Positions 4,711 through 43,331 of a stretch of DNA of 64,000 bases are shown here, one piece after another; position 1 is the stretch's first letter; the number at the start of each line of letters is the position of its first letter. The position numbers and the translations under genes were made by a program. Under the pieces are notes generated by a model. That model made no database searches, was not told where the DNA came from, and saw only the letters and a program-made list of their open reading frames with translations. This DNA comes from Skeletonema tropicum (lineage: Eukaryota > Bacillariophyta > Thalassiosirophyceae > Thalassiosirales > Thalassiosiraceae). The stretch spans positions 3,596,001 to 3,660,000 of the forward strand of contig CM074127.1 of assembly GCA_037178625.1 (NCBI GenBank), in the 5' to 3' direction.

Positions 4711-5014
4711 TTTACTAGCAGGTTGACGACGGCTGCATTAATTGTAACTGTAGCTTTAAGCTGCCTGCGATTTGCTTAGCTTTGTCCTTTGTCCTTCGTC
4801 GTCATTTGAGCTGGAATCACTAGTGTTCTCTCTTCCGCTTCATTATTTCTTCACAGTCTGAGCTCATGGCTAGCTTTTGTTCACTAGTTTCATTACTTCT
4901 GACTTTGGCAATAACACCTAATAACACGCAAACCTGACACCTCGGCGCTATTAATTATGACCTGCTGCGCTACACAGTGTCAATAGGCAATTGTGAATGG
5001 ATTCTTAGAGCATA
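4711..5014. promoter_or_regulatory. Divergent promoter region between sulfotransferase and EFSec genes
   Basis: The 304-bp gap between two start codons on opposite strands must hold the 5' ends of both genes. I see no clear TATA box or operator; it is moderately AT-rich and contains no supported frame. Confidence 0.4.
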
Positions 5015-7948
5015 ATGCCTCCGCCGACTCCAGCAAACCGAAAGAAGATAGGCATCAACGATCTCCGTGCCGATAAGGGCGGAGATCCAGATCGCTACCG
5101 CCGTCTGCTGCTACCGGACGATGGCGATCTCATCAATCAAGTTTTAGCTCAAGACAATCAACGTCGATCCCTCCTTACATCGTTGGAAGGTCTGCGCTCG
5201 CAATCGTCACATCTTCAAAAGAATGTCATTGCACCAAAGAAAAAGGCGGGGGACGATGTACCAAGTGAAGTGCTCCAGCAGCTCAAGGAATGGAAGGTTG
5301 AAATTGCGACATTGAACAATCAATTGAAGGGTGTCGAAAAAGAGAGGGACGACATGTTGACCAAGATTAATGACATTGTAGAGGCCTGCAGCAGTGCGAG
5401 CACGATTGGTAGTAGTACTGAAGCGGATAAATGTGACAATACTGCTACTACAGAAAATACAAGCAGCAGTAGCTCTATAGGCAACACTGCTTTGGAACAA
5501 GAGACGGCGGCAGCTGCAACAGAGCAGCAGCATCTGCTACAACAGCAGCAAGAACAACAACGACAACTCCCTCTTCTATCCGCAGAACAAATCAAAACTA
5601 TACCACCCGAACGAATTCTTAATATTAATGTCGGAGTTCTAGGTCATGTCGATACAGGCAAAACTTCATTAGTGAAAACACTCAGCTCGGTGCTATCCAC
5701 TGCTGCATTAGACAAATCAAAACAATCCAGAGCTAGAGGGATTACATTGGATCTTGGGTTTTCAGCTTTTTTATTGCCACTGCCAAAACAATTACGAGGG
5801 GAACAACAGACAATTTCAAGTAGTAATGACATACCACCATCTAGCAATAATGAGAGTGACATTAACTCTGGTGATAAAAAGAAGAAGAAAAAGAACAAGA
5901 GTAGTAGCAAAGGTGGCAGTGTTGGTGGTAGAACTAACGGCAACCATTCAAATCTTGATCAAAAATATGATCTCCTTCAGGTCACATTAGTCGATTGTCC
6001 AGGACATGCATCACTTATCCGAACAATCATTGGAGGTGCTCAAATTATTGATATGGTCCTTCTTGTTGTGGATGCCACCAAGGGGATGCAAACACAGACA
6101 GCGGAATGTCTTGTCATTGCTGAAATGACGACACGGAACCTAATTGTCGTATTGAATAAGATTGATATGTTTCCTGAGGATGAACGCGAGGAAAGAGTCA
6201 AGTTGGCGGAGAAGAAAATTAGAATGGCCTTACGAGGGACTAAATTTGAGGATGCCAAGATGGTCGGTATAAGTGCCTGCGTTGGTGGTGAAAAGGTTGC
6301 TGCCGTCGGCGAAGGAGGAGGAGGGCTTACTGGTGGTGGTATTGGCGATGTAACTACAATGAATGCTCATGGTGAGGTTGCCGGAACGAATAATATCCAC
6401 GGCCTCTTGGATGTACTCCAATCGCAAATGAGAGCACCCAATAGAGATGCTCGGCCATCTCCAGAACGATTTCATTTCGCTGTTGATCATTGTTTTCCCA
6501 TTAAGGGGCAGGGCACTGTGCTTACTGGTACTTGCTTATCTGGATCGGCTCGCCCGAATGATATGGTAGAGTTTCCAACTCTTGCGACACAAAAGAAGAT
6601 TAAAGGGCTTCAAATGTTTCGAAGGAAGGCCAACATAATTCAGCAAGGGGATCGGGCAGGCATTTGCGTAACCAATTTTGATGCCAAGTTAATGGAGCGA
6701 GGCACAATTGCGTCACCAGGAACAATCAAGTTGATCCATGGCGCTATTGCAGTCGTTCGCAAGGTAAGATTCTTCAAAGGCCAGTTAAACTCGGGTGCAA
6801 AATTCCACATAACCGTCGGTCACCAAACTGTCATGGCAACAGTTACATTTTGGGGAGCACGAGAAATTGCAAAGCAGGTGGAAAAGCATCAAGAATCGCA
6901 ACAGGTGGCAAGTAATGGCAACGCACCAGTACTGGGGAAATCATCATTAGGTGGTACCGCAGACTTGGCAGGATTACCTCGATTAAAGTTTGATTGGAAC
7001 CAAGATTTTTTGCATCAAGACAATTATCTAGAAACCATCCCTGCATCTGATGATTCATTGCCATCGGAAGTAGACACAAATAATGGTGATAGCCAGCCTC
7101 CTTTGCACTGGGCAAGGCTTGAATTCCTCACACCAGTCTATTGTCCTATGGACAGTCTTGTTATTGGATCGCGTTTAGACACTGAAGTGAATTCCAACGC
7201 TTGTCGACTTGCTTTTTCGGGGCGCCTGGTAGAGAGATACGATGAGCGGCAGGACAATGGTAGATTAAAGTCGTATACAAAAAAGGAAAAGGTTGGTCGT
7301 TGTTGTAGGCTGGGTGATCCATACAGACGGAGCGACGACAACAAACTGGTTCGCTACGAGATATTTGGCACAGACTTATTCAAAAAAGAAACAAACATGT
7401 CTCAATTCGTCGGGTTACTGATTGAAACAGATAGTGGAGATGTAGGAAGCATACAATCTTCTTTTGGTTCTAGTGGAAAATTTCGTGTCCACTTCCCTGC
7501 TGGCACGGCATTAAGAGAGGGTGATTCTCTTTATCTGCGATTCAAACGCTACGCAAATGATCCAAGAAAGGCAATACGTCAAGATGGAACTCTCCCTCAG
7601 GCTAGAATCGGCTCTCGAGTTGATCCTCCTGTGAAAAAGAAGAAGAAAAAGAATGGCAACAATAACGCAGAGGAATTGTCAACCGCAAATAATGAAGCAG
7701 TCGGTGAAATAGAGAAACTAAAAGGCGATGTCCTAGAGAACGGGAAGAGTCCCTTGGCCATTGTATCTGGTCTCTTTACAATGGAAGACGACATCAGCAA
7801 ACACAAAGGTCGGAGAGTGGTTTCCTCAACAACAGGAGAGGAAGGTGTCATACACGGATCCTTTGGTAAAATGGGGAAGGTCAAAGTTTCATTTGAGAAT
7901 GGTGTATCTGCAGAAGTTGGTAGCCGTGTGAGAATGTTAACAGGTTAA
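5015..7948 (+). CDS. EEFSEC: Selenocysteine-specific elongation factor (EFSec/SelB) with fused SerRS-type tRNA-binding arm
   Basis: A single intact frame of 977 residues, against about 600 for animal EFSec. From about residue 210: G1 loop GHVDTGKT, switch I RARGITLDLGFSAF, DCPGHASLIRTIIGG (about 326), NKID (about 381), a domain-2 segment HCFPIKGQGTVLTGT (about 490), and a C-terminal domain IV ending LYLRFKRYANDPRKAI. The RGITLDLGFS and GGAQIID signatures mark EFSec rather than EF-Tu. The factor delivers Sec-tRNASec to the ribosome at UGA codons with a SECIS element. The unusual part is residues about 12-125: INDLRADKGGDP, then a long two-helix hairpin, the pattern of the seryl-tRNA synthetase N-terminal arm (Seryl_tRNA_N). 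A Ser/Thr- and Gln-rich linker (about 126-205) joins the two. A lysine-rich insert splits the G domain before DCPGHA, and a second short copy of the domain IV motif closes the protein. Confidence 0.93.
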   Translation: MPPPTPANRKKIGINDLRADKGGDPDRYRRLLLPDDGDLINQVLAQDNQRRSLLTSLEGLRSQSSHLQKNVIAPKKKAGDDVPSEVLQQLKEWKVEIATLNNQLKGVEKERDDMLTKINDIVEACSSASTIGSSTEADKCDNTATTENTSSSSSIGNTALEQETAAAATEQQHLLQQQQEQQRQLPLLSAEQIKTIPPERILNINVGVLGHVDTGKTSLVKTLSSVLSTAALDKSKQSRARGITLDLGFSAFLLPLPKQLRGEQQTISSSNDIPPSSNNESDINSGDKKKKKKNKSSSKGGSVGGRTNGNHSNLDQKYDLLQVTLVDCPGHASLIRTIIGGAQIIDMVLLVVDATKGMQTQTAECLVIAEMTTRNLIVVLNKIDMFPEDEREERVKLAEKKIRMALRGTKFEDAKMVGISACVGGEKVAAVGEGGGGLTGGGIGDVTTMNAHGEVAGTNNIHGLLDVLQSQMRAPNRDARPSPERFHFAVDHCFPIKGQGTVLTGTCLSGSARPNDMVEFPTLATQKKIKGLQMFRRKANIIQQGDRAGICVTNFDAKLMERGTIASPGTIKLIHGAIAVVRKVRFFKGQLNSGAKFHITVGHQTVMATVTFWGAREIAKQVEKHQESQQVASNGNAPVLGKSSLGGTADLAGLPRLKFDWNQDFLHQDNYLETIPASDDSLPSEVDTNNGDSQPPLHWARLEFLTPVYCPMDSLVIGSRLDTEVNSNACRLAFSGRLVERYDERQDNGRLKSYTKKEKVGRCCRLGDPYRRSDDNKLVRYEIFGTDLFKKETNMSQFVGLLIETDSGDVGSIQSSFGSSGKFRVHFPAGTALREGDSLYLRFKRYANDPRKAIRQDGTLPQARIGSRVDPPVKKKKKKNGNNNAEELSTANNEAVGEIEKLKGDVLENGKSPLAIVSGLFTMEDDISKHKGRRVVSSTTGEEGVIHGSFGKMGKVKVSFENGVSAEVGSRVRMLTG

Positions 7949-11574: not shown

Positions 11575-14500
11575 TCATTGATTGGGATTTTGCCCATGAA
11601 TGTATTGTTGCTGGATACCTCGATAGTCTTGTTGCTGATTCACTCGATTAGCTTGGGAGTCATGAGATGTGACTGTAATATTACTTGCTGAGTGGTGCTG
11701 CGGATTACCTTGAGCATTCTGCATCGGAACAGCCTCAGCAGGGAGAAGAGCGACGAGACGACCTGTCGTGAATCTCCATTTCTTGCAAATGCTGATAAGC
11801 CATCAGAATAGACTGCTCTCGCGTTGGGGCAGGTTGATATTGTGGGGCACTAGGAGAATGAGTAAAATGACGCTGCTGTCCGCTGTGGTATTCTGTCCCA
11901 TTCTGCACAAGCTGATGCTGATGGTGAGATGGATTGCCAGTTTCTCTTGAGGGAGATTGAGAGAAACGTTGTTGTTGCTGCTGCTGCTGCTGCTGCTGGT
12001 TGTGGTTGTGGTTGTGGTGCTGTTGGTGCTGCTGCTGATGATGCTTCTGATGCTGATGATGATGATGCTGCTGCTGATGCTGCTGATGATGATGCTGCTG
12101 ATGATGATGCTGCTGCTGATGATGCTGCTGCTGATGATGCTGCTGCTGCTGATGATGCTGCTGCTGATGATGCTGCTGCTGATGATGCTGCTGCTGATGA
12201 TGCTGCTGCTGATGATGCTCCTGCTGATGATGCTCCTGCTGATGATGCTCCTGCTGATGCTGATGCTGTTGATGCTGCTGATGCTGCTGTTGATGCTGCT
12301 GTTGATGCTGCTGATGCTGATGCTGCTGTTGCTGATGCTGCTGTTGATGCTGATGCTCTTCATAGCTACTCTGTCGATATTGGGACGCACCCGAACCTAT
12401 CGCTGAAGTGGGAGGAGGAAAATGCGTCTGCCCAATCTGGTTAGATGCACGATGGCTTCTGGGTTGAGGTTTGGTGTATTGCTTCTGGCTATTCACCATC
12501 TCAACTGCCGTCAAAAGTGAGTCCAAGCTGGAGCTTTGCACTGGCAATGCACTTGAGGCGGTCTGGAAGTTGCTGGAAGGTGGATTTTGAGTTGGTTTCA
12601 ATTTAGCAGACAAACCAGGAGGAGGTTGCGTAGGCTGGGTAGGCTGAGCAATCTTCGACACCATTGAGCTTGAGTAGGTAGGGTGGGTTGGTTGGGCTGA
12701 GTAATCGTCGAAGTCGTGGTAGCTTGGGATTGATTCATTGGAGCACTCGCACCAGGTCGAGTAGCCGCCGAGACCACGGTATGTTGGGATTGATTCATCT
12801 GGAGACTCGAACCAGGTGCAGGCTGCGGGTGCGTCACTTTCATGACGGTTTGCTTGTTTTGTAAATTCAACTTCTTTCGTGTACGCGTCAAAAACCCATC
12901 CAACGTCCGCGTATTTTCAATGCCAAAATGAGCCATAATTTTGTCCTTCATCTCTTTCGATGGATACGGATTGGATGTTTTCAGGAGCCATTGCGTTAAA
13001 TATTGCTTTGCTTCGTCTGATAAGCCACTTTGCTTGGAAACAGCTGCACCGCTAGATGATGATTTCGCACTAACAACCTCACCAACCGCAACTTGACTCT
13101 GTCCATTAGATGGAAGTTGTTGGTTAACAGACATTGAAACCTGTGTACTGGCAGTCAACGCAGTCTGATTCTGTGGCCTTTGATGATTCGAAGGAAGATT
13201 CAAGTTTGGGTTCATGGCAAACTGATTCTGAGAAGTTGGTACAACATGTTTCGCAATGATGGATGTGCTGGCTGGAATCGTTTGGGCTTTTGGCTGTGGC
13301 TGCGGTTGTGGCTTTGGCTGCAGTTGTGGCTGCTGCTGTAGCTGTAGCTGCGGCTGCGGCTGCGGTTGTGGCTGCGGTTGTGGCTGCGGTTGTGGCTGCG
13401 GCTGCGGTTGTGGCTGCGGCTGGTTGTGGCTGCGGCTGCGGCTGTGGCTGTGGCTGCGGCTGTAACTGCGGCTGTTGTTGTGGCTGCGAAATACTACCCT
13501 CTGATGAATTATTCGAAGCTTGAACTGAGTTGTTTGGCATGTGCTGCTTCTTCAATTTCTTTCTTCTTCGATAAAACCAACTGTCAATACGCGCCCTGTC
13601 AACTCCCAATTGTTTTGCCATCCACTCTTTTGCTTCCGCAGTTGGAGTTGCAGCTGCAATAGGATTCGCCTGCACGTTCTCAGGGCGAAGAAGCCATGCA
13701 CTCAAAAAGTTGTTCATATCTTCATTCTTTTTCTTCTTGAGTTCCTTTTCTTTTCTCTGTTCGTCTGTGAGGCCATCATCTTTTTTCTTCTTCGGCTTTT
13801 TCCTCGTCCTCATCCATTCATCTAACTGAGTCTCACTCAACCCGGTATCAGACATAATTTTGAGTTTTTCAAGAGGATTAGGAATCGGGTTGGCAGGGTG
13901 GAGTGACATCCACGTATTCAGGTAATCGTTGATTGGCTTCGACGAGAGTGCGATCAATGATTTTGCACTGCTATCTTCCTTAGATTCCACATCATCAACT
14001 TTCCTCTTCGCTCCGGCAGAAGTGTCCACTTTCTTTGAATTCGCACCTCCAATGAAAGGACGTGGTGTATATGAATGATGGGGTGCTAATTCTAGGAGAT
14101 CCCACTTCAACCCACTCATCTCGATCGCTCCTTAAGCCGGTAAAAAGTGAACTTCACACGCTTCACGTTAGAATTCAAGTCGAGCTCGACTACTTGAGCC
14201 TCCGAATAACCTATTTTCCCCTCGCGTTGGACATCGAACCATGCTGAATAGATTGCAAACAATATACCATCAAATCAGACAATGAATTTGAAAAAGAACA
14301 AAAACGTTGCAAGTGCATACTCACCACCAACTTCAAAATTCTGATTGCTGTCAAACTTGATTGGTGCATCATCCATGTCCCAATCGTCCTCCGTAGCATC
14401 ACATGTTTGCCTGTTGGGATTCCAAATGTTGTCTTTGCAGTAGAATTTTTCAGGTAATAGGTCAACGTCAACGTGCCAAGGTAGCTTTCTCCATTTGAGA

Positions 14501-25760: not shown

Positions 25761-28700
25761 TCATAAAGGAGCGCTGCATGATACAGACGATGAGTATTTT
25801 CCACTTCCTACCGAGTTGCGTGCGAGTATTCTTGCGTAGTACATTCTTCCTGGGTATAAATTATCCAAATTTGTTTGTATTCCTGGAATCGTTACGATTC
25901 TACTATCAGTTCCAGTGTAATCAGGACGTTCATTCACTTCCAGCTCATACTCTGCTATATCTTCGCCTCCGTTTGTTTGAGGGAGACTTCCACCGTACGG
26001 AGTTGGGCAATCTTTATCGCTGAAACATGGTATTCCATGGTTTGGCACGTTCGGCCTTTGCCAAGAAAATTCAATGACTCCTGTCGAGTCTCCAGGAAGA
26101 CATTCTAATGAGTATGGAATACCTGGGATCTGCACTCGTGGGAAGGCCCAACTTGGATTGGACCTTTGCGCTTGACTGGAACCAGCTGAGTTGATTGCAT
26201 ACACCCTCAAGTAGTAAGATTTCTCTTGAGACAATAAATCAACAGTGTAGCTTCGTGAAGTCGGTCCAAGGTCCACATATCCTTTGTTTGGAGGCTGCGA
26301 CGCTGACACAAATTGGGGGTTTGTGTCCCACTCGACTCTGTATTTAGCTATTGAGTCTCCACCATCGGATAGAGGTGGGCTCCATCCAATAGTCAACATA
26401 CTATCACTTGTAACACCAAGCCGAACGTTTGTGGGTGGTGAAGGTTTTTGGTGTGGATTTAGTGAAGATGGAGTTGATGCTTGACTGATGCCGTATCCTT
26501 GGCTATTCATAGCCATCACTCTAACGTAGTAGTAAACACCAGTTGATAGACCTTCAATGTTTTTGAAGAATGGACTACCGCCTGCAAGATAATCATGCGT
26601 TGAAGATTCAGCGTTAGCAAAGTCACTGCTAGTGCTCCATTCAATCTTATAATTTGTAATGGTATCACCACCATTGTCTGAGGGAGAGCCAAACATGACC
26701 CTAAGTTGAGTAGCAGAAATAACTTCAAGCGTTACGCCTGTCGGTGCTGCTGGTACTACCATCGGTGCTACCGAATTTTCATCATTGTTTGGAAGAGAGT
26801 AACCTTCCTTGTTCCTCGCGCTCACTCTTGCATAATAATGGAGTCCTTTGACCAAACCGCCGAGACTGGGCACTACAAGAGGTCCTGTGCAGGAGGTGTA
26901 CGTTTTCCCACTGTTCAATAAACTCACTGCGACCTGCCCAGTTCCAGTGGTCGTGGTGAGCGAATTACTGTGAACTCGAAGGGCAAAATCTCTCTCAGCT
27001 GGCTGAGCGTCATCCAAGAATGTTACTCTCCAAATGAAACCATTCTGTGCATTCGGCCCATCACGATCGATAAAGACTCCTTTCACAATTGCAGGGATAA
27101 GATCTTCGAGCTTATTCTGTAGACTTCCACTCTTTGCCTCAGAGTCGACCGGACATAAATCCTCGTTGAGATGGCAATGGATTCTAGAAGAGAGTGGGCT
27201 TCCACGGCCGCCATAGTATCTTGTTGTAGAAATTTGAATCCCATCATCGCCAATAAATGCCTCAGTAAGAGTTGCAGATGTACCAGCCACAGATTGTACT
27301 TGATAATACTTGTATGACATGCTTTGGCCAGAGAAACGAAGTCTATCCCCCGGAAATAATATGCCCTCTATTCTTGTGGGTGGTATCGTAGCAAGAACGT
27401 CACTATTTGCTGTAGTCGAAAAAGTTGGAAGAAGCTCTTCCGAAATGCCAGTTTCGTTACTTGCGAGAGCAACCGCGTCATAAGGTATAGGTGCTGTTGT
27501 TGATGTAAATCCATCCACTTCTAATTCTAGTTGAAAACTTCCGCCACTAATGACACCGCCATTCCCATCGGTAGAAGTTTCGATTTGCCACTCTGTCCGC
27601 CTATTATTTGACGGGCAATGAAAGTCCTGAACGATGGGATAATCGAAAGATGGCGTTGGATCGAGCTCCACTCGATATAACAAGATATCACTGCCACCGT
27701 TACTTGTGGGCGCATCAAAATCAACAATGAGACTATCACTAAAGCCCGTATTCACGCTTAGTGCAACATTTTGTGGACTCTCTGGAGCTTGGAGTGGCGG
27801 AGAAACAGATGGAGGGAGAGGCTCGAGCCGTTTACTTAGACCATGCACGGAATTACTCGCAGAAACAGCGACAAAGTATTCTTTACCAGTCTGCAGCCCT
27901 GTGATTTCATATGATTCTATCGACGAATCCAAAATTCCTGAGTTGCTGTATTGTACTGGAAGCTCACCAGGGATCGTCGCGCTTGCTTTATTATTCAATA
28001 CATTCATTGCATTGTTCCCGTCATAGACCACGACATCAACTTCACCTTCAGTGGATGCTAAATGTGCCGAATCGATCACAAGTGCTTCCACGTTGCCAGG
28101 GTTGGAAACAAAATGAATTTCATAGTGATGAATTAAATCTGCTCCCGTTCCAACAAGAGCTGTATCAACACTATCATTCTGCATGACATCCACCTCGCCT
28201 ATTGTACTGAGTTGTTCGAGTGCATTCTTGATGTAGCTGGCGCTTGCGTGAAGAGGAACGAAGCTAGACCACTCCGAACCCGCGAACTTGAGGCGATAAT
28301 GTCCAGATACTACTCCCTTCCCCGTGACTTGCAAGTATTGAACCTCTGTCAGACCACCCTGTCTCTGACCATCTTGTAGCGTTGATACTGTGATCAAAGG
28401 AGATCCCGAATCTCCGTTACTCATTACACTCGCAGAGAGACTGACCATATCACCATCGGAGATTGACCTTTCTGGATTGCCCCCAAACGTTATCCTCCAC
28501 TCAAAGCCATTCGAAATGTCACTTCGTGTCACCTCTACATCACCTATCAACATCAAATCATTAGATTCATCCCAGCCAAGATTGAGAAGTTCTCGTCGGA
28601 CAAGACTCGCAGGTGCATTCCACGGCAAGTTTGGCGTCTCCTTCTTGACAGTTGGAGTTGGACTGAAGCTGAGTGAAAACGTTGTATCGAACAGCTGTGA

Positions 28701-31700
28701 ACTATACTGCAGGCGCACAAGCTGAATTTCGGACACCGTATCTTCCTTCGTCCACCATTCTACCAAATATCCATTGACTGGATAGCCTCCATTTGAAGAA
28801 GGGGCAGTCCAGACAATATTTGCAGTGGTAATAGGAAATTCACTTGCCTCAAGCGTTGTAAGAGTGGCTGTTTCAGGGGGGTTTGATGGTCCAGAGGGCA
28901 CTCCAGAGATTATTTCTGACTCTGCTCCAGCTCCTACACTGTTTATTGCAAACATTTTGAGGAAGTAAAGTTCTCCGGCAACGACTTTTGGTGTCGTGGG
29001 TGTAAAATCAAAAACATACTTGCCGCCGCTATCAGGAATGACGGAAGCAATACTCGACGCTACTACCAACGTGTTGGGAGAAGAAAAGTCCTCGGAGGTG
29101 TCATACACGACGGCAAAATCTGATATAAGTTTGCCACCTTCTCTTTGAGGCCACTTGAATAACACCTGGAAACTTTCACGTCCAAGGACCAATAGCTCCA
29201 AAGATGTTGGTGGGTCAGGAACTTGGTCAGATGTCACGGCGGACACACTCGCTGACCACCGAGTGTTATCCATAGGAACTCCAGAAGGATGATAAAGAAA
29301 CTGAACAGGGACAGAATTTCTTGCAGCTACTCGCACATAGTAGGACTCTGTTTCATCCAGTCCACATAATTCATGGCGATAAGGCGGAGGAGAGCTCGGA
29401 GAAATCGCGCACGACCCATACCCAACACTACCGCAAGATGCCGAATCAGACTCTGCTCCCGAAAAAGACTCGTTTTCATCCCATTGAATGATGTAGGAGC
29501 TAACCATGTAATCGTAAAGAGGAGGATCGAACGAAACCTCAAGACAAGTCCCAGAAATTGCTGTCACATACACATTCTCAGGCGCAGTTGGTATTCCACG
29601 AGGGATCTCGGAGATAGAGTCACTGTAATCACTCCACCCTATTTCATTCATTGATTTCGCTCGAATGTAATATTCCGTTCCAGGTGAAAGCGAAGAGGCA
29701 TACACACATTTGTTGCAATCTTTTGGAGCAATCTCAATTGCTGCCTCTCTTGGCAGTATATGATGCTTTGGTGCTGTCAATGGCTTTATATCTCCATCAA
29801 CTTTCAGCAAAGAAACAGTCCATTCATATCCTCCTGTCCAAACTTGTAAGTCCCACGCGCGAAGATCACTATCGCCGACATATGATGCTTTTATTGTCGA
29901 GTCATCAATAGATGCAATGTCAAAGTTTTCACTCACACCATCATAGTATGATGATACCCGCTGCCATTTGTCTCCGATTTGGATTAGTTCATTCGCTTTT
30001 ATACCTTTTTCTGAGAAATTGCATGGACTACATGATGCACTGCATTCGATTGAAGAAGACCCAACAGATACATCAACGCAAACTCCAGGAACAGATTGGT
30101 GCGCAAAGGCTCTGGTAACACTGGCCGTGTCTATCCCTGGGAGATCTTCCAATATGAAACGAAGGTCATCTGCACTGGCATGAGCATTTATCGGCTCACT
30201 CCGACTTCCATCGTATTCGATATTAAAATATCCGCCCACATAATTTAAAGGCTTGATGCCAGTATACATTGTGCGAATTATTTGCACCGAATAATCAGGT
30301 GAGTGTCTTAAAACATGTGTTGAAGCTCCTCCAAAATCGGAGGTCGGACTCAGTTCAATCAAATCTTCAATAATCGGACTCCCGCAGAAAGCTCGCCTGA
30401 CATCGGATGAAGAACAACCTCTTGGACGGACCAAGCTAAGATGGAGAGAACTTCTAGAAGCAACGCTTCCCTTAAAAAGTTCTGTCACAGAAATAGCTGC
30501 ACCCAGTCCTGTTAAATTGGAATGGTCGAAATTGAGTAATGGGGCGTCTCCCATTTCGGCGTCCAAAAACGTAATTTGAAAAGTGCGACCAAGCTCCGAA
30601 TCAGTATTACCGCTTGTATATACTTCCACACTTCCTATTCCGTCCAAGGCTTCAAGCGCAGCAGCCAGTGTCTCAGCATCCACGTCAAAGGGCAACAGGG
30701 TTGTGGTGTCGTCTTCAAACGACAGAGCAAAAGATCCTCCCAATTCATTTCCCTTCGTGCTTTCAACAACAGATATCGTCGCTCCTTTACCAGTGAGCGA
30801 GCTTGAAGCACGAAGGATCGGAACGTCACCATTGCTTTCACTGAACGTCACATTCCACGTATATCCTCCCTGACCATCTGCATGCGACCTCGTCACGTCC
30901 ACGCTTCCAACCCCAGGTATCTTACTAATAGCAGACTCCAATTCAAATGGACTTGCATCATGCGTTATTGCATCAGATGATTCGAGATAAAAATTTCCTT
31001 GGATCTCATTTGCATCCATGACCGTGCTTGTTTGGCAAGATACCAGCGATGTTGTTTGCGGTTGGTTGCACACGAGCAGAGGTAGGTTTCCATCCTCATC
31101 ACCATATGTTATTGTGAATGTCAAGCCATTCAATGAGGTTTCCAAACTCTCTGCAACTTGAGCTTCCTGAATACTCATAGGAAGTGCTGCAAGGATAGAA
31201 TTCCTGATGACCATCGAAGATTCACTGGTTGGAGCGCCAGGTAAAGTATGCTCTCCATCGTACTTTGAAACAACTCGAACGATTGCTATTGCGTCAGGTA
31301 TTTCACTCACTTGTTTCAAGGCATGATTGTGATATGCTTTGGGAGGATTGCAGCTGTTCGGCTCAACTACATAGAAGTTGGTTCCTTGGAGAGGCATGAA
31401 TCCCATCGCATCTAATGTTCCTGTCGTATGCATAGCATTGCCATCAAAGTACACCACGAATCCATTTCCATCACTACGATTATCAACGCGTACTGAGTCA
31501 ATGTTTGCAAGGGTCTCTAATGCTATCTCCAACTCTACGGGTCCCGCATCCCAGGAGATGCAAGGTGTTAACAATTCTTGTGCCAAATGGGTCAGGCTCA
31601 GTTGAAACTCTCCTTCCACGATTTGCACGTTCGAATCAATTTCCAATTCAACACGTGGCGTGTCTGTTCCAAGCGCGAATGATTCATTCTCGGTCCAAAT

Positions 31701-34700
31701 CTCAAGTGATGCATCATTTGTCGAGGAAGCAAACGCTTCACATGACGTGCCACCCACGGAATCCGACCCAGATAGTGTCAAGTCAGATGACATTTCAAGC
31801 ATGTTTCCACGCACATTGCTTCCCTCAAAGTAAACCTTGTATTCAAATCCATAATCTGAAGAAAAACTTCGGCTTCCAGAACGAACGACACGAACTGAAT
31901 TCAACCCAAGAGGGTTGGACAAGGCATCAATTTCAATTGCATGTTTGACTTCCTCTGCAGTTGCATCGAATGGTATACAAGCTGATTTCATTTCCTTGTA
32001 CACAAGTGATCCTGATAGATTAGAATTCATCATGTCAGCGTAGAGAAGCTTGAGAAAGAAAGACCCACTTGTGACAGGAGAGCCTGCAGACCACTTTACG
32101 ACTTGAATTTCAGGATGTCGCAAGGAGAATAAATAACTATTCATATCACTATCTTCTGTTCCCTCTAATGATATTTCCTGAACTTCTGGAATAGAAACGG
32201 CTGACGTCGTTATTGTTTGAACTTCGTTCTGATGAGAGGCAGCAAGGACCACCTTTTGGACCTCTTCTTGATGCAAGGCATAACCAGCTGACACCTTCCT
32301 CATTACTTCTGGCTTGTCGCTTGGGATAGCACTAACAGTGTCACTGTGTGAGCTGACTGCCAAATTGTCATTTTTTGCATAGACTCTAAAGTAATGTGGT
32401 ATTCCTGCCAACAAATACGGGATTGTAAAGTGACCTGGATTCATGCCATCGTGCACGTTGACAATGGAGGATTGTGCACCAGGTGAAAGTGAACTCGAAT
32501 CAATGGATATTTCTGCCACACTACCAAGGCTTTGGCCAAAACGAATTAGCCAATACATTCCAGTGATACGGTAAATTGGTAGATTTGATTGTGATTCACC
32601 AATCCACCGATCAACAGGAGTCCCTCCAAATGGGAGCTGATTCGATGTGAAGTGCTGCGAGCTCGATCCCTGCTGCAGTGTTGTAATGAGAATTTTCTCA
32701 CCTCCTGCGGAATCAAATGCAACGCAATCCGAATGCGAAGTATGAGCTTCGAGACCATCTTCGATACCGGAATCAAACATGTCTCGATTTGCAGCAGACG
32801 CTGAATCAAAATATAGCGTGTAAACAAAGCCATTTGGGGCCAATAAGGCGTCTTCTTTTCGAGTGACTGTTACACATGGTTCCGATGACAACGGACAGAT
32901 TGAACTGAGGGTATTCAACTCATTTTCGATATCTTCCTCCGAGGCATCGTACGCGATGCAGCCCGTGTATTCACCACTGAAGGAGAGCTTGTAAGACGAC
33001 ATTTCGGATCCCCAGATGGATTCATTGCCGTCATCCATGACAATAATTCTCTGGACTTCCGACGAAAAATCATGCACAGAAAGAATAGGAGGCACTACAT
33101 ACAAGTTTTGTAACCCTCCCAGATCTTGTCTCACAACTCTGTCAACAACATAACTGTCTGCCATTGAATCGATCGTCCCACCTCCATCGACAACAGTTGT
33201 TATTCCTATGTTCCTATTCATTCCATCAATGATGTCTGCGTTGGATGCACCGCAAGTTCCATCGCCGAACTTATTGACATGGATTTGTGGGACATCGCTC
33301 CAATGAGAACCCGTAAAGAACAAGTCGTAGACATGCTCGTCAATTCCTTCCTGAATGACCTCCACGCTGAACTGAGGAGTTCCACCACGAACCGAGTGGA
33401 TTGAGACGGAACCCGCGATTGTCGATCCATGAAAAGTTTCTGTCAGAACTATTGACATATCATCTGATCGAATGTGATCAACTGTGTAAATCTTTGACGG
33501 AACTAAAGAAGAACTGATCCTGATTCTTGCCCCAGCAGCGATATTTGCCACGCCACCGACGCCCAACGACACAATTTCACTTTCATCCGAAGTTGTTGCA
33601 GTGTTCGTTATCAGTTCATGATTGATACCATAATCTTCGCACCCACCATCGGCTCCAATTTCAGTGATATAAAATTTTGGTGCATTACTGCCCAATACTG
33701 CACTTGAACCAAAGGTAGAGGTCGAACCACTACTGATAAACTTGTAGGAATAACCAAAACCCGAAGCAGAAGATCCATCGCCATGTAATTGCACAACTGT
33801 GATATGGTCTCTGTCGAGAACATCAATGACTCCGTCCTGATTGAAATCAAACAACAGCCCGATCTGTTCTTGGATTTCCTCCGCAGAAGCTCCAATTGGA
33901 ATACACTCTGTGCTCTTAAAAACGCCACCAAGATCGACGGTTAGTTTGTACAATCCTACATTCGACGTTATTTCCTCATCAGAATACATTTGCACCATTG
34001 TTACTTCAGAGGTACTCATGCCATTATTCGTGGATGACTCGATGATGGAGATGTCACTGCCCACCAGCAATTCGTCGCCAAACTCAGACGCACACCCAGA
34101 GGTAGACTTGACTACAATAGACTTTCCATCCTCCTCAATCGATACAACGTGTCCGGGGCACCGTTGCCCAGGATTGACATAGTCACCAACAAGAATGATT
34201 CCTTCCACAAAACCTGAGGCTTCAATCCTGTAATGACCATCCCCAATACTGGTGACCCCACTCGGACCGACAGAAAGGACAGCAAATGAAAATTCATCGG
34301 CATTCATAGAGGATGTCAGATCTAATGACGACGCTCCCCATACAATACAGGGAGATGTCCATGAATTAGAATTCGAGTCCAAAATAGAGAGCTGGAATGC
34401 AGGAGTATCAGAGGTGCTTCCAAAGTCAGAAGATAGAGTGATACGTTGATGTTCCGTCCTTCCACCTTGAACCAATGTACGGATATGGACATGCGAGTTG
34501 GACGAGTCAGCGCCAGCTACGATGCCACTTGAACACTCCTCTGCAACCATCTCGTCGACATCGCCGATCAATCCACTCCCAATGAAATGAACTCGATAAA
34601 GATGAGCGTTTTCAATGTAACCTGAAGAATCATTTGTTCTTGTGACAAGAACTCCTCCATTATTGGACAAAATTGATAGCCCATTCAAGGCAGTTTCCAC

Positions 34701-35446
34701 ATCTGATGCAGTAGAATCAAACGTCAAGCACGACGTAACGTCAGTAACGCCATTGATGGTGACTCGAAGCTGATAAAAGTTGCCATTTGGTATGTCTCTT
34801 GAACGATGAAGAGCAATCAGTTGAACTTCAATACCATTCTTCATAACGGTGTACGTATCCCCTCCAGTTCTAATATTTTCACCGACATGAATGACGTTAC
34901 GATGAGCATTCAGCCGTGCATTCGTCAAAATAGGCGAGCGAGGAGATAGAGATGCAGAACCAATCAATTCTGCTCCATCGATCTCCGCCATCGAACCTCC
35001 AATTCTTAGTAAGTCCCCAGGAGCAAATTGCTCACGCAAATCACCACCAATGATAGATGCTACATTGCTATCAGTAATGACGCTGGCACTTATTCCAGGG
35101 ATGAGATGATTGGCTTGTATTCCAGACGAAACGGTTACATCTCCAAGTGATCGAAGATCATTTATCGATTGCTCTAATGTCGAAGCACCCGCATTGTATG
35201 GAATTGGGGCAGTCTTCTCCTCATCAAGAGTGAGATGAAATGTTCCGAGAAGTGGTGCCGATCCATCCAATGGCGAAGTCATTCCAACAGATGCATGACT
35301 CCCCAATAGAAGTGTGTCATCGATAGTTGGGGGACTCATGACACCACTTCCAGGCGGGAATGTAACGCCATTATCGCTGCCAGGATTCTTTAAAAAGTGA
35401 ATTGTCCACTTGTATCCACCAATGGTATCAGGAAGTAACAGCCGTC
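25761..35446 (-). CDS. Giant secreted FN3/beta-domain protein, segment 3 of 3 (C-terminal)
   Basis: The longest frame in the window, about 3,230 codons without a stop, ending SGKYSSSVSCSAPL. It continues segment 2 after an apparent extra base near 35443-35447. Two module types alternate. Fibronectin III domains cluster toward the C-terminus, with signatures SDNGGDTITNYKIEWSTSSDF, LSDGGDSIAKYRVEWDTNPQF and GGYPVNGYLVEWW. A second beta-rich module recurs at least twelve times: a strand like GSFALSFEDDTTTLLPFD, a helix like ALEALDGIGSVEVY, and a GYTWNVTFSESNGDVPIL strand. A run of E-[VI]-Q strand motifs lies at about 32100-32260. No membrane segment or GPI-like tail is seen. The likely role is adhesive or structural, at the cell surface or in the extracellular matrix (inference). 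Confidence 0.8.
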
Positions 35447-38400
35447 CCGCCCCACCCTCCAGTCTCGCAACTAGGAAAGCAGTCTTTGCTGACATGTACA
35501 CTTCCAATGGTACTCATTTCTTCCAACTTTCGCAACATCCTTGTCGGTGTTTCGTCGTAGGAGAAAGACCGCGGTCCACCAAACGAGGCATAGTCCAGAT
35601 CAAAAGTGCCGTGTAATCCTTCTGACCCTTTCGTTATCTCATTGACAAGAATGTTCGCATTTCGATTCGATGTGTCAGGACCTTGAGTTACAACCATTTC
35701 TTGGATATCACCAGATCCTGGTGGAGTTGACCCAGCATTTTCTGTAAAAGTGATTGTCCACTCAACTGTGCCATACTTGTCCAAAATTGAACGCGTCGTC
35801 ATAACTGTTCGACTACCCAATTGTTCCAAGTGAGCCTTGATCGATGCTGGGTCTGCATTCCAAGCAAGATTTCCACTAAGATTGTCTCCATCAACTTCAA
35901 GAGTCGTAATTTCACCTCGTTGAACTATGCCATCAGCGCAGTCGTTGCAGTTATAAGGATGAAGGGTCCCATCAATCATTGTCAAGATCTCAACACTCTG
36001 GCTCGGCTCAAAGTCGTGAGCACAAGAAGAGGGCGACACTTCTAGAGCATCAATGTCACCCGTATCATAAAATGTCAGGTAGTAGGCAAATCCATTATGT
36101 GCCCTATCCTCTGATCGATTCCTTTCTACTCTTACGTTGCCACCAATTCCATTATCTAAAGCTGTCTGTATTGCCAGTCTCATATCGTCTGCAGATGCAC
36201 TGTTCTGGATACAGCTTGTCTCTACTCCACCGACGATTAGAATGAACTCCTTTGATTCTTCAGTATTCACAACCGATCCACCTTTCCATCCAAGATAATC
36301 TACATCCTTTACATAGACAGCTTGTTTTTCGTTACCACTAGGAAAACGCTGACCACTATCCCTGTCTCCCATATCTAGAACATCAAGTTTGCGACATGAA
36401 TTGGGATTGAGGCAAGTACCCAGAAGAGACGAAGTATCGCATGTAGTTGAACCACTACACAATTTTGGCACATCGCCAGGTGAATTACACAACGATTGAA
36501 TGTCATCTTTTTGCTCACAAGGACCATCCGCATCGTTCAAGAAAGTAACCTTCCACGTATACCCACCATTCCGAGTGTTGACTTCACTTCGTGTCACATG
36601 CACATCGCCAATGTTTTCAAGCTGCTCGAGCTTTTCTTCTACTGACGTTCCGTCACCACCACTTTCTTCTGCTGATGCCATGGCATTGTGAGCAATAAAA
36701 TCTGTGCACACATCAGACTCCACACTCATTACTCCATTTGGATTTGTCACCGAGTCCATGCATAGCTTGAACACGCCGCCCAATGGATCCGTTCCTGGGA
36801 CTATTTCATGGACAGAACATCCGTCGTCAGGAAGTGCTCCATTTGTACTTGTCAAGCCCGACGAAAGACAACTCAACATGGGGACATTGCCGACATTTTT
36901 GCCCCACGCTTTGGAGAATCCAGAATCCCAAGTATCCAAATACGATGCCGGTGGGCCCACCCAATTGCCTGGCACAAACGATGCATCGTGAACCAAAGTA
37001 GGATCTTTCCAAGTGTTAGAAGCGAACGTGACATACCAAATGCGACCACCGACCTGTGTGCTCATTCCCGCAATGCCATCTGTTGGACCGGAACGCACTG
37101 GATTATCACCACCTGAAACTACAACTGCCGAAGGCGCAATTGAATTCAACTCATTCAAGGCTTCCTGGACGTCTAATGCTGTTGCATCATAATTGATTGG
37201 GCGTGTAGTTTCACCTTCATAACGAAGTTGGAATGTGCCGAATATCTCAGTGCCTTTGACAGCCTCATTGATATGAACATACGAATTTTGGCCATACAGT
37301 GAACTACCAAGCATGTGAACCAACAAGGGAATATCTCCTCCAACATCTTCGTGTCGGAATAAAATTGTGTAGCTAAATCCCATCCATTGCGTCGGATTCT
37401 CCGAGCGGACGACATCAATTTGATTCGAGGAATTACCCAAGACGAATTCCTCAAATAAAGACTTGAATTCTTCGGCACCAAGTGCAGTGAAACGGTCGCT
37501 TGACGAGCCTCCCATTTGAACAGGAAATACTTCACCAGTCTCTACAGAAGTGTGATACAAATTACCACCCCACAACAAAGAGAATGATCCTGATACTTGA
37601 TTTCCATCTCGTGCAAGGTTAGGATCATCAATGCTAAATGTCGCGCTGTTTCTCAACCCCTGGAACAAATCCGATTCTCCCGAGTCTTGGTCCGAAACTT
37701 CCAGTGTGACACCTATCCCAGTAAGAGCGGATGCTTCAACTGTCATGGCAGGGATATTTCCACCACGTGATAAGAAGGTTACCACCCATTGATACCCCCC
37801 TGACCACCTTGAATGAGTCGGAGGAATATACGGAGAGCGCGATACACTCACCAAGCCAAATACTTTGTTGCCATTGGAATCAGAAATAGATTCAAGTGAA
37901 GTCTTGACGTCATTGGGATCGATATTCCACCGCATAGCACCAGTTTCAAACATCTCAATACTTTCTGACACGTATTCATGTGGCCACGTTGTTTGTAACT
38001 TGAAATATCCATCAATCAGCGACGAGTCTTGCGTTGTTTCCACAGAGCAATCATTATCTCCTGATATGGTATTGCATATCATTTGGTGGACGTGACCAGG
38101 TTGCTTTTGGAATGTTACTTCCCAGTGAAGACCTACTTCTGTCATCAAATCCGACACAATATTCCTCGAAACAGAAATACCAGAAGACTCAATGATCGGC
38201 AACGCTCCAAGCTTGCCTTTCCAGTCAACAACCGAATTTGATTCATTATTGACCTCGACATCAATTGGCAGAGTGGTGTGGATCCGCGATGCCATACAGT
38301 GACTGCTAACGCCCGAATCACCATTACTTCCATCCCAATCTGAAAAGTAGTCTCCAAATTCTACGTCCTGGTAAGCAATACCATCAATTGGTGCCCTAGT

Positions 38401-39575
38401 TGCAAATTGGACACTATTTGTGTCGACATCTATAACTTCTATCTTTCGATAGAAATCGATTCCATCGCCATTACTGAACCGAATCCATTGACCTAATGAC
38501 ATGCCATTGACAAAATCGTCACTATCAAATGATGCAGACATTCCATCATTGTAAATTGACATGGAGAAGCTTGCTGGAAGACGAACGACTCTCGATTCGC
38601 ACTCGTAGTCCAAACTAATCATTCCATTTGGCTGAGATCCCTTCACCGCCTCAAAGGCAGCACTACCGGCTTCACTGTCGTAAAAACTACCATATTCAGA
38701 GCTCACTGCTGCTCCTACGGGATCATCACAGCCATTCACATAAAAATCAGAGGGACACATATCATTCACATATGACGAGGAAGCCGTATCAAGCCTAAAA
38801 TCACTGGCAACGACAGTGAGAGGGGGGACATCACCACTAGTATGAATGGCATCGAAGGCAATCTCATATATCAATTCGTATTCACCACTACACGTGGCTG
38901 GATTTGCGCCCATTGGATCCAATATACAGGATCCTTTTGTTTTAATCCGCCCTACTCTAGTGACAGTCACGCCATCTTTTTTCCCCTGTGCGGTATCCGG
39001 CAATGTCATGAAGGAGACACCATTGTCATCTACGAGATCATTGATAACACGTTGTAAAGTACCTGGTTCTCCTTCAACTGATGAGTATGAGTACGAAGAA
39101 ACAGGCTCTGATACACAATGATCACCCCCAGAGTATGGATCAAGCACCAAACCTGGACTGCAAACTACCGTGCCATGATCCGGCACATACTCTGATAAGG
39201 CCAGCTGGCAATAATTTACACCATCACCACCACATTCATCAAAGTCAAACGACACGGTGAATGATCCTGACAGAGCGGCTTCGATATCAGCGCACGAATC
39301 TCCAACATCAATTCCCATACACGCTGTACTATGAACACCATCTCCATCTGTGTTGATGTTGGAAATTACAATGCCGAATTTCTGCACCTCATTGACTCGT
39401 AGTGCAGATACTTTGACTGACTGAATCTCGACTTGATCGCTCGCGTGAAGTCGTACAAGCTGAATCTCGTCCACATCATCAGATACCAATGATACAACTT
39501 GCTCCTCGTTTGTATCCACTGCATTTGTAACAATCATTTGCACTTCCGCTACAACATCGTCACAGGTAGTTCGAT
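35445..39575 (-). CDS. Giant secreted FN3/beta-domain protein, segment 2 of 3
   Basis: About 1,375 codons joining segment 1 near 39575 and segment 3 near 35445, each by a one-base shift. It opens with a tandem block of E-[VI]-Q strand motifs (VAEVQMIVTN, DEIQLVRLHA, VEIQSVKVSA, NEVQKFGIVI). At least eight copies of the beta-module follow, recognisable by LEQLENIGDVHVTRSEV and GGYTWKVTFLNDADG. Many paired cysteines (for example around 36360-36480) suggest disulfides and an extracellular location. FN3 domains are rare here. Not a separate gene: it has no signal peptide, and its apparent start is internal to conserved sequence. Confidence 0.75.
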
Positions 39576-42500
39576 ACTTCCTGGATTTCATCTACTCCAT
39601 CTATTTCCGTCTTGATCGATTGGACTTCATTTGTAACAGCTACTGTTGCTTGTATCGTTTGAATATTCAGGTTCAAATCCGTCGTTCCTATTTGTAGTCC
39701 TTTCACTTCACTAACAACGGGGACAGAAACTTTCTTGGGAGCCAAATCGAAATTCGTTGTAGTATCGTACTCCACGACATACTCTTGTAGGACATTGCCT
39801 CCGTCCAGCGTTGGGGTGTCCCATTCTACCTTCACAGATGATGCAGATACTGGAATTGCGTTTCGAATCGGGGGAGCACTAGGAGCTGTATCTGCGAGTG
39901 GTCCTATAACTGTGGGAAACGTCACTGTCGTCCCTGACCCTTCAGCATTGAATGCTGTGATGCGAGCGTAGTAGGTCCCACCTGCCTCGAGCATGGAAGA
40001 TTCAGATCCAGAAATGATTTCTCGACCACCAATTCGGAAGGATGTTTCGGTGGAAGGGACAATAAAAGATGTGGCAGGTGATGCAAAGTCAGCTTCACTA
40101 TCGTATTCGATCATGTATTGAGTTATGGAAGATCCGCCGTCCCCTGCATAGTCACAACTCTTGTTGTCATGATGTACGTTTGGAGGCATCCATGTCATCA
40201 TCATCCCTAAACTGCTTGTCGGGAAGACATTGAAATCAATAACAGGCCCAGCCTTCCCAACAACAGCGGTTGCTGATACCACAGTACTCTCAGCAGCATC
40301 ACTCCATTTGTAGCCATTGAAGGAGAGAACTCGTGCATATCGTTTTGAGCTGGACGAGGAAGGAGTCACAGGGAAATCATCACAATAGTGAATGCCGCCA
40401 TCATCGTTTTGCGAGTCAACAGATACTTCGCGGAAGTAGCCGTCGATCCATGCGTTTGGAAAGGAAGGGTCGGTGTCCCATTGGAGTAAGTATTTTTCAA
40501 TCGGAGATCCTCCATTGTGATCCGGCGATTCCCATACGACACGGATGAGAGAGTCGCTCAAAGGAAACATTGACATAGATGTGGGATGTGTTGGTCGTCG
40601 GATTGGAGTCGTCGGAGAAGAAACTCCCAGTGCTGCATAACCAAATCCTTTCGTATTTCGACTACGAATGCGAACGTAATATGGAACACCATTTGCCAAG
40701 TCTTTGATTTGGTATTGCAAAGATGAAGATCCGTCGGCCATGGTTGGATGCGGAATCAATGCGTCACCGTAGTCAATAGGTTCAGTACCGTCAACGATTG
40801 TTGCAACTCTCGCACGAGCATCTGGCCCCATTAATGTCGAATCGTCGATTGTAATTTGCTCCCGATTCCCCAATTCAGAAAGGAAAGTGACGAAATAATT
40901 GTGCCCATTGTTGTTAGTATATCGCGTGACATCCACTTCACCAATTGTGGTCAGCGATTCCAGTGCCTGCTTCACCAACTGTGCGTCAGCGTCAAAAGGA
41001 ATCGGTAATGTCCGCTCTCCATCAAAGCCTAGCCTCATCACCCCACTCAAGGGCTTGACACCCCTCCGTACACGAGCAACTTCAATCACTGGATTCGTGC
41101 CGGCCCAATTATCTGCTGGATGTACTTCTAGCAACGGTTGCTCTCCGATATGACTATTGAAAGTGACCTGCCACTCGTAACCGTACGACCACTTGTGAAT
41201 GATAACATTGTTTGCTGATGGACCCGTGTAGGCGTCGTATAAGGTGATGGATGAACTTGTGACGGAAGAAACAACGTGATGTTCACCACTAACATTGATT
41301 GAATCACCAGCGGAAAATAGATCAACGAGACTTGACGTCGACCCGTCTCCAACACGTTCCAATATATTGCTCCCTGGGGACAAGTCAAATCCAACTTGTG
41401 GGACGGATGTCCACGATAAATCTCTGCTGACTTCAACATCGCCGATGGTTGACAACCGTTCCAGTTTCACTTCCAAAGAGCCTTCTCCATCTGCATCGAC
41501 GTCGTGTGGAATGAGATCGGACGACTCACCATCAAATATCACCGTAAAAAACCCTGTGATACCATCTGAGTCGGCGCTAATCTTGATCGATTGAATCTCA
41601 GCTATTCCGTCGGATGAAGAGGTTGTCAATTTTTGGATCTCACGCTTTTCCATGGAAGAGTACCACTCGACTCTATACTCTGATACAGGATCACCTCCAT
41701 CATCATTATTGGCATTCCAAGAAAGTAATAGAGATGTCCCTGGCTCATCGAAAGTGTCTGGGTCAGGAATGCTCACAATCGCATTGTTGGGTGGAGGAGG
41801 CTGGATTACTGGAGTTGCCGTCACTGTTGAAGAAGATACACCGTAGCCCAGAGAATTATACGCCGATACACGACAATGATACACCAGTCCATAATGCAAT
41901 CCTCTAATGTTGAATGATATAGGATTGGTGCCTCTAACGTTCTCAAAGATATCAACGTGGGTAACAGCAGGGTCAACCAGCGCGGAAGATGAAAGAGCCA
42001 AAAACCCCAAATTGCCAGCCCCCTGTCGATTCTCATGAACAAGATGAGTAAAGGTAACAATCCACGATCGCGAGGTACAATCTCCGGGGCCGCTAGAATG
42101 ATGATGGTCAGAATTGACGTTGACAGTATGAATAGTGTCGAGCAATTCGAGAGCGGCTTTGAAATCATCCGACGAAGCATTCACATTGATGTGATCAGTT
42201 GTCTTTCCTTCAAATTCCAAAGCAAACGACCCATCTAATGATTCACAATCGAACCCACGTTGTTTACGCACAGATACTGTTTGAACTTCGTTCGTGTAAG
42301 ATCCAGGATAAATGTCACTTGATCCAGGAATCGTTTCCGATACTCTGATGGTCGCACCACCGCCCACCAAGAGATCACCATCGGCGCGAATTAAACCAAT
42401 GTCTCCATTGATTCCTGAAAAAACAACTTTCCATTTGTAGCCAAACCCATTCGCTTTTCGAGTGACACGAACGGGAGAGTGTTCAGGCTCAAGAATAAAT

Positions 42501-42946
42501 AACTCTACCAAATCCTTGATCGCTACTTCCAGATCGTCCGCTGTTACGTCGACATCCAGCGGCGTGGACACCCTTCCGCCCCAGGACAATACAAATGCCC
42601 CCGAGCAAATGGATGGGCAAGATAGCACTATTTCTTGTTCTTCTCGCACGTATGTTACCTCTGAAGACCCGAAATTCGGGCTTGTTGCTGTAAAAGAAGG
42701 TAGGTGGAAATTGCTTTGAGATGCATCCCACTCTACCTTGTATTTTGTTATTGGCTCTCCGCCATCATTGTGTGGTGGCCGGTAGGACAGTCTCAGATCA
42801 CCAAACTGATAGTTGGAAAAGACGAGCTCTGCAGACACTCCAATGAACCGGAGGAGACAAACGTAAATTAAAAAATGAGCAATGCTCATTCCAATCGAAT
42901 TCTGACGTGGTTGTCTTTGGAGTCTTATCATTCCAACTGATCTCAT
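39575..42946 (-). CDS. Giant secreted FN3/beta-domain protein, segment 1 of 3 (N-terminal, signal peptide)
   Basis: The first ATG is at 42946; the ATG at 42889 gives a cleaner signal peptide (SIAHFLIYVCLLRFIGVSA before ELVFSN). The mature protein starts with an FN3 domain (PHNDGGEPITKYKVEWDA). FN3 domains alternate with the beta-module (DDFKAALELLDTIHTVNV, VKQALESLTTIGEVDVTRY). Later FN3 copies read HNGGSPIEKYLLQWDTDPSF and DGGNVLQEYVVEYDTTTNF. The frame then shifts by one base inside a run of EVQ motifs near 39575. Together the three segments make about 5,700 residues over 17.2 kb, without a visible intron. Neighbours are the satellite array downstream and purH upstream; nothing suggests co-function. 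Confidence 0.8.
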
Positions 42947-43331
42947 CGTCCAACTGATTCGCGTCAGGAGCAATTGGCAAAGTTTGTTTTCTCAGTATTT
43001 CATTGTCATTGCAACATTCGACCGAATGAAATTCTTTGAGCTCGATGAGAATGATGCTCTTGGCGTCTTTAAAATTTTTTTGCAGGCGAAATCAAATTAT
43101 TTGTACTACGAGTAGCTCACGTACATTTCCAGCTCTATGCGAGTCAATCCAAGAGCAATACAAACAGAAGAACAATAGGGAAAGAAAGGCATCGGTCAAA
43201 TCCATATCAAATATATAATTCTTAAATATCGAAGCATACTAGCTGCTCACCATCCTCCTCTCTCTAGCTAGCGAACCCAAACAATGCAATGAGGAACTGC
43301 CATTGTATGTCATATCAACGTCGTTACCACT
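42947..43331. other. Intergenic region upstream of the giant gene, downstream of purH
   Basis: 385 bp holding the 5' flank of the FN3 gene and the 3' flank of the purine gene. No supported frame, RNA or repeat is seen. Confidence 0.35.

Follow-up and report, generated by a model that had tools for sequence, protein, structure and literature searches.

A seryl-tRNA synthetase-type tRNA-binding domain joined in frame to the selenocysteine elongation factor of Skeletonema tropicum and related diatoms

The window analysed here is a 64,000-nucleotide stretch of the diatom Skeletonema tropicum (GenBank assembly GCA_037178625.1, contig CM074127.1, positions 3,596,001 to 3,660,000 of the forward strand), and the gene of interest within it, at 5015-7948 on the plus strand, encodes the selenocysteine elongation factor (EFSec). 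The gene is a single uninterrupted, intronless frame of 977 amino acids (aa), and because an in-frame TAG lies upstream at 5006-5008, the ATG at 5015 is the first usable start. Our analysis confirmed that its product is a complete eukaryotic EFSec preceded by a whole tRNA-binding domain of seryl-tRNA synthetase (SerRS) and a disordered linker. The features of the gene are the following.

5015..7948, plus strand, whole gene comprising SerRS arm, linker and EFSec (open frame, upstream stop, Pfam architecture)
5045..5386, plus strand, SerRS-type tRNA-binding domain, residues 11-124 (PF02403 on residues 36-121; alignments to SerRS)
5048..5113, plus strand, N-terminal arm cap, residues 12-33, INDLRxDKGGDPxxYR (common to cytosolic SerRS)
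5126..5245, plus strand, arm helix 1, residues 38-77 (AlphaFold2 model)
5225..5248, plus strand, basic hairpin tip VIAPKKKA, residues 71-78 (same in diatom cytosolic SerRS)
5264..5398, plus strand, arm helix 2, residues 84-128 (AlphaFold2 model)
5387..5572, plus strand, low-complexity Ser/Thr/Gln-rich linker, residues 125-186 (predicted local distance difference test score, pLDDT, <50 at residues 130-184)
5573..5623, plus strand, N-terminal lead belonging to EFSec itself, residues 187-203, LLSAEQIKTIPPERILN (84% mean pairwise identity in 17 carriers)
5624..6283, plus strand, GTPase domain PF00009, residues 204-423 (Pfam, above cut-off)
6512..6706, plus strand, EF-Tu domain 2 PF03144, residues 500-564 (27.7 bits, just below the Pfam cut-off of 30.3)
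6746..7222, plus strand, eukaryotic SelB domain 3 PF21208, residues 578-736 (E 5e-32)
7262..7516, plus strand, eEFSec domain 4 PF21131, residues 750-834 (E 4.2e-22)

An earlier note on this DNA, made from the sequence alone, had proposed the in-frame fusion of a SerRS arm to EFSec, and this proposal was backed by profile searches, predicted structure, phylogeny and conservation. The Seryl_tRNA_N profile (PF02403), which the note had named as a check, matched residues 36-121 significantly (E 7.4e-8; 33.0 bits against a curated cut-off of 28.2), and the score rose to 36.8 bits with residues 1-212 as the sole query. The NCBIfam model serS reached only 25.7 bits on residues 40-148 against its full-length cut-off of 301.65, as expected for an arm that is present without the enzyme, and the class II catalytic domain PF00587 gave no match in the window protein at E up to 1. 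The AlphaFold2 model of the protein contained the cap and a long antiparallel two-helix arm with block pLDDT values of 93-98 across residues 41-120, and when the modelled arm was laid over human SerRS, 107 residues, those of the cap among them, agreed to 1.7 Å. SerRS chains headed both structure-search lists, where the alignment spans residue 11 to residues 119-121. The DLRADKGGDP segment and the two long helices that had been read from the letters were located at residues 16-25 and, in the model, at 38-77 and 84-128. The predicted domain end near residue 125 was correct, whereas the end coordinate given for the region (5650) already lies inside the GTPase domain, and the Gln-rich linker is present in this protein but is not conserved in its relatives.

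The body of the protein showed PF00009, PF21208 and PF21131 all above cut-off, with the P-loop GHVDTGKT in frame and a variable low-complexity insert at residues ~263-318 of the GTPase domain. A lead like that of residues 187-203 closes the short N-terminus of EFSecs that have no arm. The best solved relative was human eEFSec (5izk; E 1.1e-132), which in its structures (PDB 5izk, 7zjw) has the GTPase domain and domains 2, 3 and 4 in identical order but neither arm nor linker; its residue 24 aligns to window residue 200, leaving ~176 extra residues at the N-terminus of the diatom protein, which also has a C-terminal extension past the alignment.

The distribution of the fusion was surveyed with both ends of the protein. 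A search with residues 1-130, which requires exact 5-residue words, returned 19 proteins, all of them (19/19) EFSec-like with a precomputed PF02403 match, and other carriers that it missed were found by a search with core residues 190-977, which returned 1538 proteins. The EFSec set comprised the best 120 of these 1538 together with the window protein and P0010, the latter coming from the residues 1-130 search alone. An arm profile applied at E 0.001 matched 40 of the 122 EFSec proteins examined and did not match 82, of which 70 have 10-94 residues (median 24) ahead of the GTPase motif and 12 have no such motif. Seven of the 82 (P0021, P0027, P0029, P0030, P0042, P0046 and P0054) are >65% identical to the window core but appear to be truncated at the N-terminus or to have been given a wrong start, and are uninformative on the arm. 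Among the 40 carriers, P0025 and P0028 start within the arm, and 37 full arms were used for residue counts. When PF02403 itself was applied to eight other carriers, six passed, P0039 fell below the cut-off (25.1 bits) and P0024 had no match at E 0.001; neither of the two armless EFSecs tested matched.

The five carriers named to species (Skeletonema marinoi, Thalassiosira exigua, T. profunda, Cyclostephanos tholiformis and Stephanocyclus meneghinianus) all belong to genera of the Thalassiosirales, four of the five being confirmed by look-up. The stramenopile range in which the earlier note had suggested looking for the fusion can be narrowed to this one order on the strength of these five names. 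Species-named EFSecs without the arm came from Nitzschia inconspicua, Seminavis robusta (marked as a fragment), Fistulifera solaris, Cylindrotheca fusiformis and C. closterium; Fistulifera was checked to belong to the Bacillariophyceae, and the Nitzschia, Seminavis and Cylindrotheca species are raphid diatoms. In three of these armless proteins (N. inconspicua P0089, F. solaris P0114 and C. closterium P0106) the core is ~50% identical, 19-40 residues precede the GTPase motif and the arm profile gave no match at E 0.001. No centric diatom outside the Thalassiosirales was named among the armless EFSecs examined, so that the place of the gain on the diatom tree is not fixed. The earlier note had named transcripts with the arm and EFSec as separate messages as a refutation; this refutation fails in two relatives, P0012 and P0018, which bear MMETSP transcript names and each hold one frame across both. 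Database records already show both kinds of Pfam domain, for example in S. marinoi P0006, and the UniRef label of P0006, P0029 and P0039 ('Elongation factor Tu, chloroplastic') is misleading.

The genome examined (78.4 Mb in 125 contigs) gave PF02403 matches at three loci. Besides this gene, these are L001, a cytosolic SerRS of 491 aa, and L002, an organellar-type SerRS of 533 aa. The arm resembles the cytosolic enzyme, including its tip LQ(K/R)xVIAPKKKA, and the organellar enzyme was rejected as its source since L002 has neither the KGG cap nor the VIAPKKKA tip. A profile built from the 37 EFSec arms matched 121 of 121 SerRS proteins (L001, at 3e-28, and 120 listed relatives), the named ones being mostly from diatoms. 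Phylogenetic analysis of 34 EFSec arms, 44 SerRS arms and two outgroups placed the EFSec arms in one clade (100/100), and the best tree nested them with 25 presumed thalassiosiralean SerRS (100/96), a group made up of L001 and 24 of P0122-P0146 that were picked by score and are named only in part. Approximately unbiased (AU) tests did not reject the placement of the EFSec arms outside this group (p 0.57; 2.73 log units better) or outside all 44 non-outgroup SerRS (p 0.47). The arm tree consequently neither dates the fusion nor fixes its donor, and dating from it was dropped, as these tests leave alternative placements standing.

The distribution of EFSec cores is a better guide to the date of the fusion than the arm tree. 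A quick EFSec-core tree, with the arm excluded, was made from 25 of the 40 carriers and 33 armless proteins (every second one), and the armed cores fell on one side of a branch with support of 100, a result that fits one gain. The arm may be pictured as a copy from a diatom-type cytosolic SerRS that would have been joined once, in the line leading to the armed EFSecs, whose named members are all Thalassiosirales.

Mean pairwise identity, taken over the 17 carriers having all domains, was 72% in the cap and 62% in the arm helices, both with 1% gaps, and only 14% with 44% gaps in the linker (residues 126-186); the core segments measured reached 90-97%, the GTPase low-complexity insert 22% and the C-terminal region 57%. 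Retention of the arm while the linker drifts suggests that selection acts on the arm. Residues D16, R18, G23, L32, L44, R50, R51, E58, R61, Q68, K94 and L100 are identical in 37/37 full arms. Among 41 columns with >=90% conservation in SerRS, 26 keep the SerRS residue in >=70% of EFSec arms, and these are distributed as 8/10 in the cap, 0/1 between cap and helix 1, 3/6 in the base of helix 1, 11/14 in the tip half and 4/10 in the base of helix 2. The clearest loss in the EFSec arms is GNIVDP, the exit toward the SerRS catalytic domain.

In comparison to the N-terminal domain (NTD) of cytosolic SerRS (PF02403; PDB 3vbb, 8p7b and 4rqf; L001 of the same genome), the EFSec arm shares the cap, the two-helix arm and the basic tip, but lacks the catalytic domain and the GNIVDP exit, has lost the SerRS residues W50, N65, P105 and G119, and has fixed residues of its own (R50, E58, S65 and K94) along with the near-fixed W93. 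Owing to such features (R50, S65, W93 in 35/37 and K94 in all), the EFSec arms look like a specialised version of the domain. At residue 50 (5162-5164) the near-invariant helix 1 Trp of SerRS is Arg in 37/37 EFSec arms, and at residue 93 (5291-5293) a helix 2 Trp was gained in 35/37; the two positions stand at similar height on the hairpin, and the Trp may have swapped sides. Our analysis shows the architecture of the fusion, its homology to SerRS, its confinement to a single clade and its conservation.

The selenocysteine (Sec) machinery of the genome included SepSecS and a single EFSec gene by PF21208, and no second EFSec was found by that search, the count being a lower bound. Five tRNA-Sec genes (L004-L008) of identical sequence but different flanks were found; C9 holds two of them and C10 the other three, which lie within ~600 bases. 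Their variable arm consists of a 5-bp stem and a 4-base loop; the substrate that a SerRS arm would recognise is present in the genome. The same tRNA search gave three more matches, all tRNA-Ser(UGA). Multiple tRNA-Sec genes had been reported earlier in the diatom Fragilariopsis cylindrus (PMC5330540, excerpt). An RNase MRP RNA match (L006 1079-1450; 61.4 bits, gathering score 50) lies directly upstream of the C10 tRNA-Sec cluster.

The arm probably serves as an extra hold for EFSec on tRNA-Sec, one of the two roles suggested in the earlier note; the other, acceptance of the tRNA from the synthetase step, is weighed below. The SerRS NTD places a helix in the cleft between the T-arm and the variable arm of tRNA-Ser (PMC11479938, excerpt), tRNA-Sec is also charged by SerRS (PMC10817482, excerpt), and domain 4 of human eEFSec has only been proposed to touch the elbow and the variable arm (PMC5059743, excerpt). 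A tethered arm would add a grip on the variable arm and thereby avidity, and on a flexible linker it could act as a hook that catches tRNA-Sec with higher affinity, holds it until delivery and perhaps releases it on the ribosome. Linker length, measured for 35 of the 37 full arms, is 48-122 residues with a median of 74. We infer the tRNA binding, the gain in affinity and the timing. The arm by itself should not separate tRNA-Sec from tRNA-Ser, and discrimination between the two would thus stay with the EFSec body. A wider role is possible but doubtful, in which a domain captured from an aminoacyl-tRNA synthetase reads the variable arm, takes over tRNA-Sec as it leaves synthesis and protects the scarce Sec-tRNA-Sec up to the moment when a UGA codon requires it; this one order of diatoms would then have a recognition step absent in other eukaryotes.

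Several observations weigh against an extra tRNA grip. The preference for keeping SerRS residues at the tip over the base is a trend only (Fisher p 0.07-0.16 at three thresholds), SerRS-invariant sites are altered (W50->R, N65->S, P105->K and G119->N), and the arm, at 62% identity, is less conserved than the core at ~90-97%. Net charge of the arm is about zero or negative in most of the 17 carriers, with basic character at the tip only, and because the arm is not basic overall our confidence in a tRNA grip was set slightly lower. In addition, tRNA-Ser is also present and is a likely competitor for a SerRS-type arm, and many related EFSecs function without an arm.

The same data were weighed under other explanations. 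An unlikely but foremost one is that the arm lets EFSec take tRNA-Sec straight from SerRS, PSTK or SepSecS, a channelling that would leave no Sec-tRNA-Sec free at any stage. Since both would recognise one and the same region of the tRNA, the arm could displace SerRS; the flexible linker would give reach, and channelling from synthetase to factor has been considered for archaeal SerRS in connection with the ribosomal stalk (PMC10817482, excerpt). Two identical grips would however be rivals for a single site and could not share the tRNA, and a direct hand-off is without direct support. Slightly less likely again is a protein dock, in which the arm keeps a SerRS surface that recruits a partner such as a METTL6-like tRNA methyltransferase to EFSec. 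In the human METTL6-SerRS-tRNA-Ser structure, the NTD loop K12-G13 of SerRS contacts METTL6 F32 (PMC11479938, excerpt), and EFSec arms retain the equivalent loop (K21 in 33/37, G22 in 35/37 and G23 in 37/37), but this loop also belongs to the domain fold, and the hairpin tip and helix 1, which a cap-only dock does not need, are kept as well.

A relic or spacer role, with the folded helical hairpin kept for stability or folding and not for binding tRNA, is improbable for the arm. Its lower conservation relative to the EFSec core, the several altered SerRS-invariant positions and the arms that Pfam misses (P0039 and P0024) would agree with a relic, yet the cap, the basic tip and polar positions such as R51, R61 and Q68 are fixed across carriers while the linker drifts, and none of them would be required in a spacer. 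An artefact, whether a coiled coil matched by chance or genes joined in error, can be dismissed, as the same join recurs in 40/122 EFSec proteins from many sources, two with MMETSP transcript names, the match covers a cap outside the coiled coil as well as the VIAPKKKA tip, and SerRS chains stand first in both structure lists.

No other elongation factor is known to us that carries the tRNA-binding domain of a synthetase. The earlier note knew of no described EFSec with a SerRS arm, and our search of the open-access literature (titles and starts of abstracts, with subscription journals and preprints outside its scope) likewise gave none, nor did its titles include any fusion of a synthetase domain to an elongation factor in general. 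The fusion is not mentioned in the available portions of PMC7539508, PMC2375036 and PMC5330540. What we report is a real, conserved and lineage-restricted domain fusion in a known factor, to which a function can be ascribed only by inference. It resembles SLIMP, the insect SerRS paralog, in that a SerRS-derived protein was put to a new role (PMC9437257, excerpt), and differs in that SLIMP is a paralog of the whole protein, whereas here a domain was attached to an elongation factor. One survey counted 20-44 selenoprotein genes in diatom genomes (PMC7539508, excerpt), which indicates that Sec delivery matters to diatoms. The fusion bears on how EFSec selects tRNA-Sec and on whether the long variable arm takes part in this: the added domain looks like a dedicated binder of the variable arm, and because it can be deleted while the EFSec body stays intact, it offers a direct way to test the point.

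Beyond the human eEFSec alignment, the window protein has a beta-rich C-terminal domain at residues ~895-977 (7697-7945; block pLDDT 70-90), and PF04950 (Tsr1/BMS1 C-terminal) matches residues 914-965 with 32.6 bits in all. An origin of this domain as a copy of domain 4 was rejected after BLASTP of chosen pieces gave nothing (E 15). Five related proteins of 747-787 aa (P0003, P0005, P0014, P0015 and P0038) stop shortly past RLVERYD(D/A/E)K with dissimilar tails, as if an intron had been read through at a point where the window is intronless. Lys-codon runs encoding KKKKKK occur at 5885-5910, in the GTPase insert, and at 7633-7656, after domain 4.

Elsewhere in the window, a Gln/His-rich frame of 309 aa at 11735-12664 (minus strand) lies on a long CTG/ATG-type repeat and has no Pfam match at E 1e-5. 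Three large adjacent minus-strand frames of 3248, 1387 and 1137 aa occupy 25761-42973; the middle one of 1387 aa is without a Pfam match at the same threshold, and the 3248-aa and 1137-aa frames carry fibronectin type III domains.
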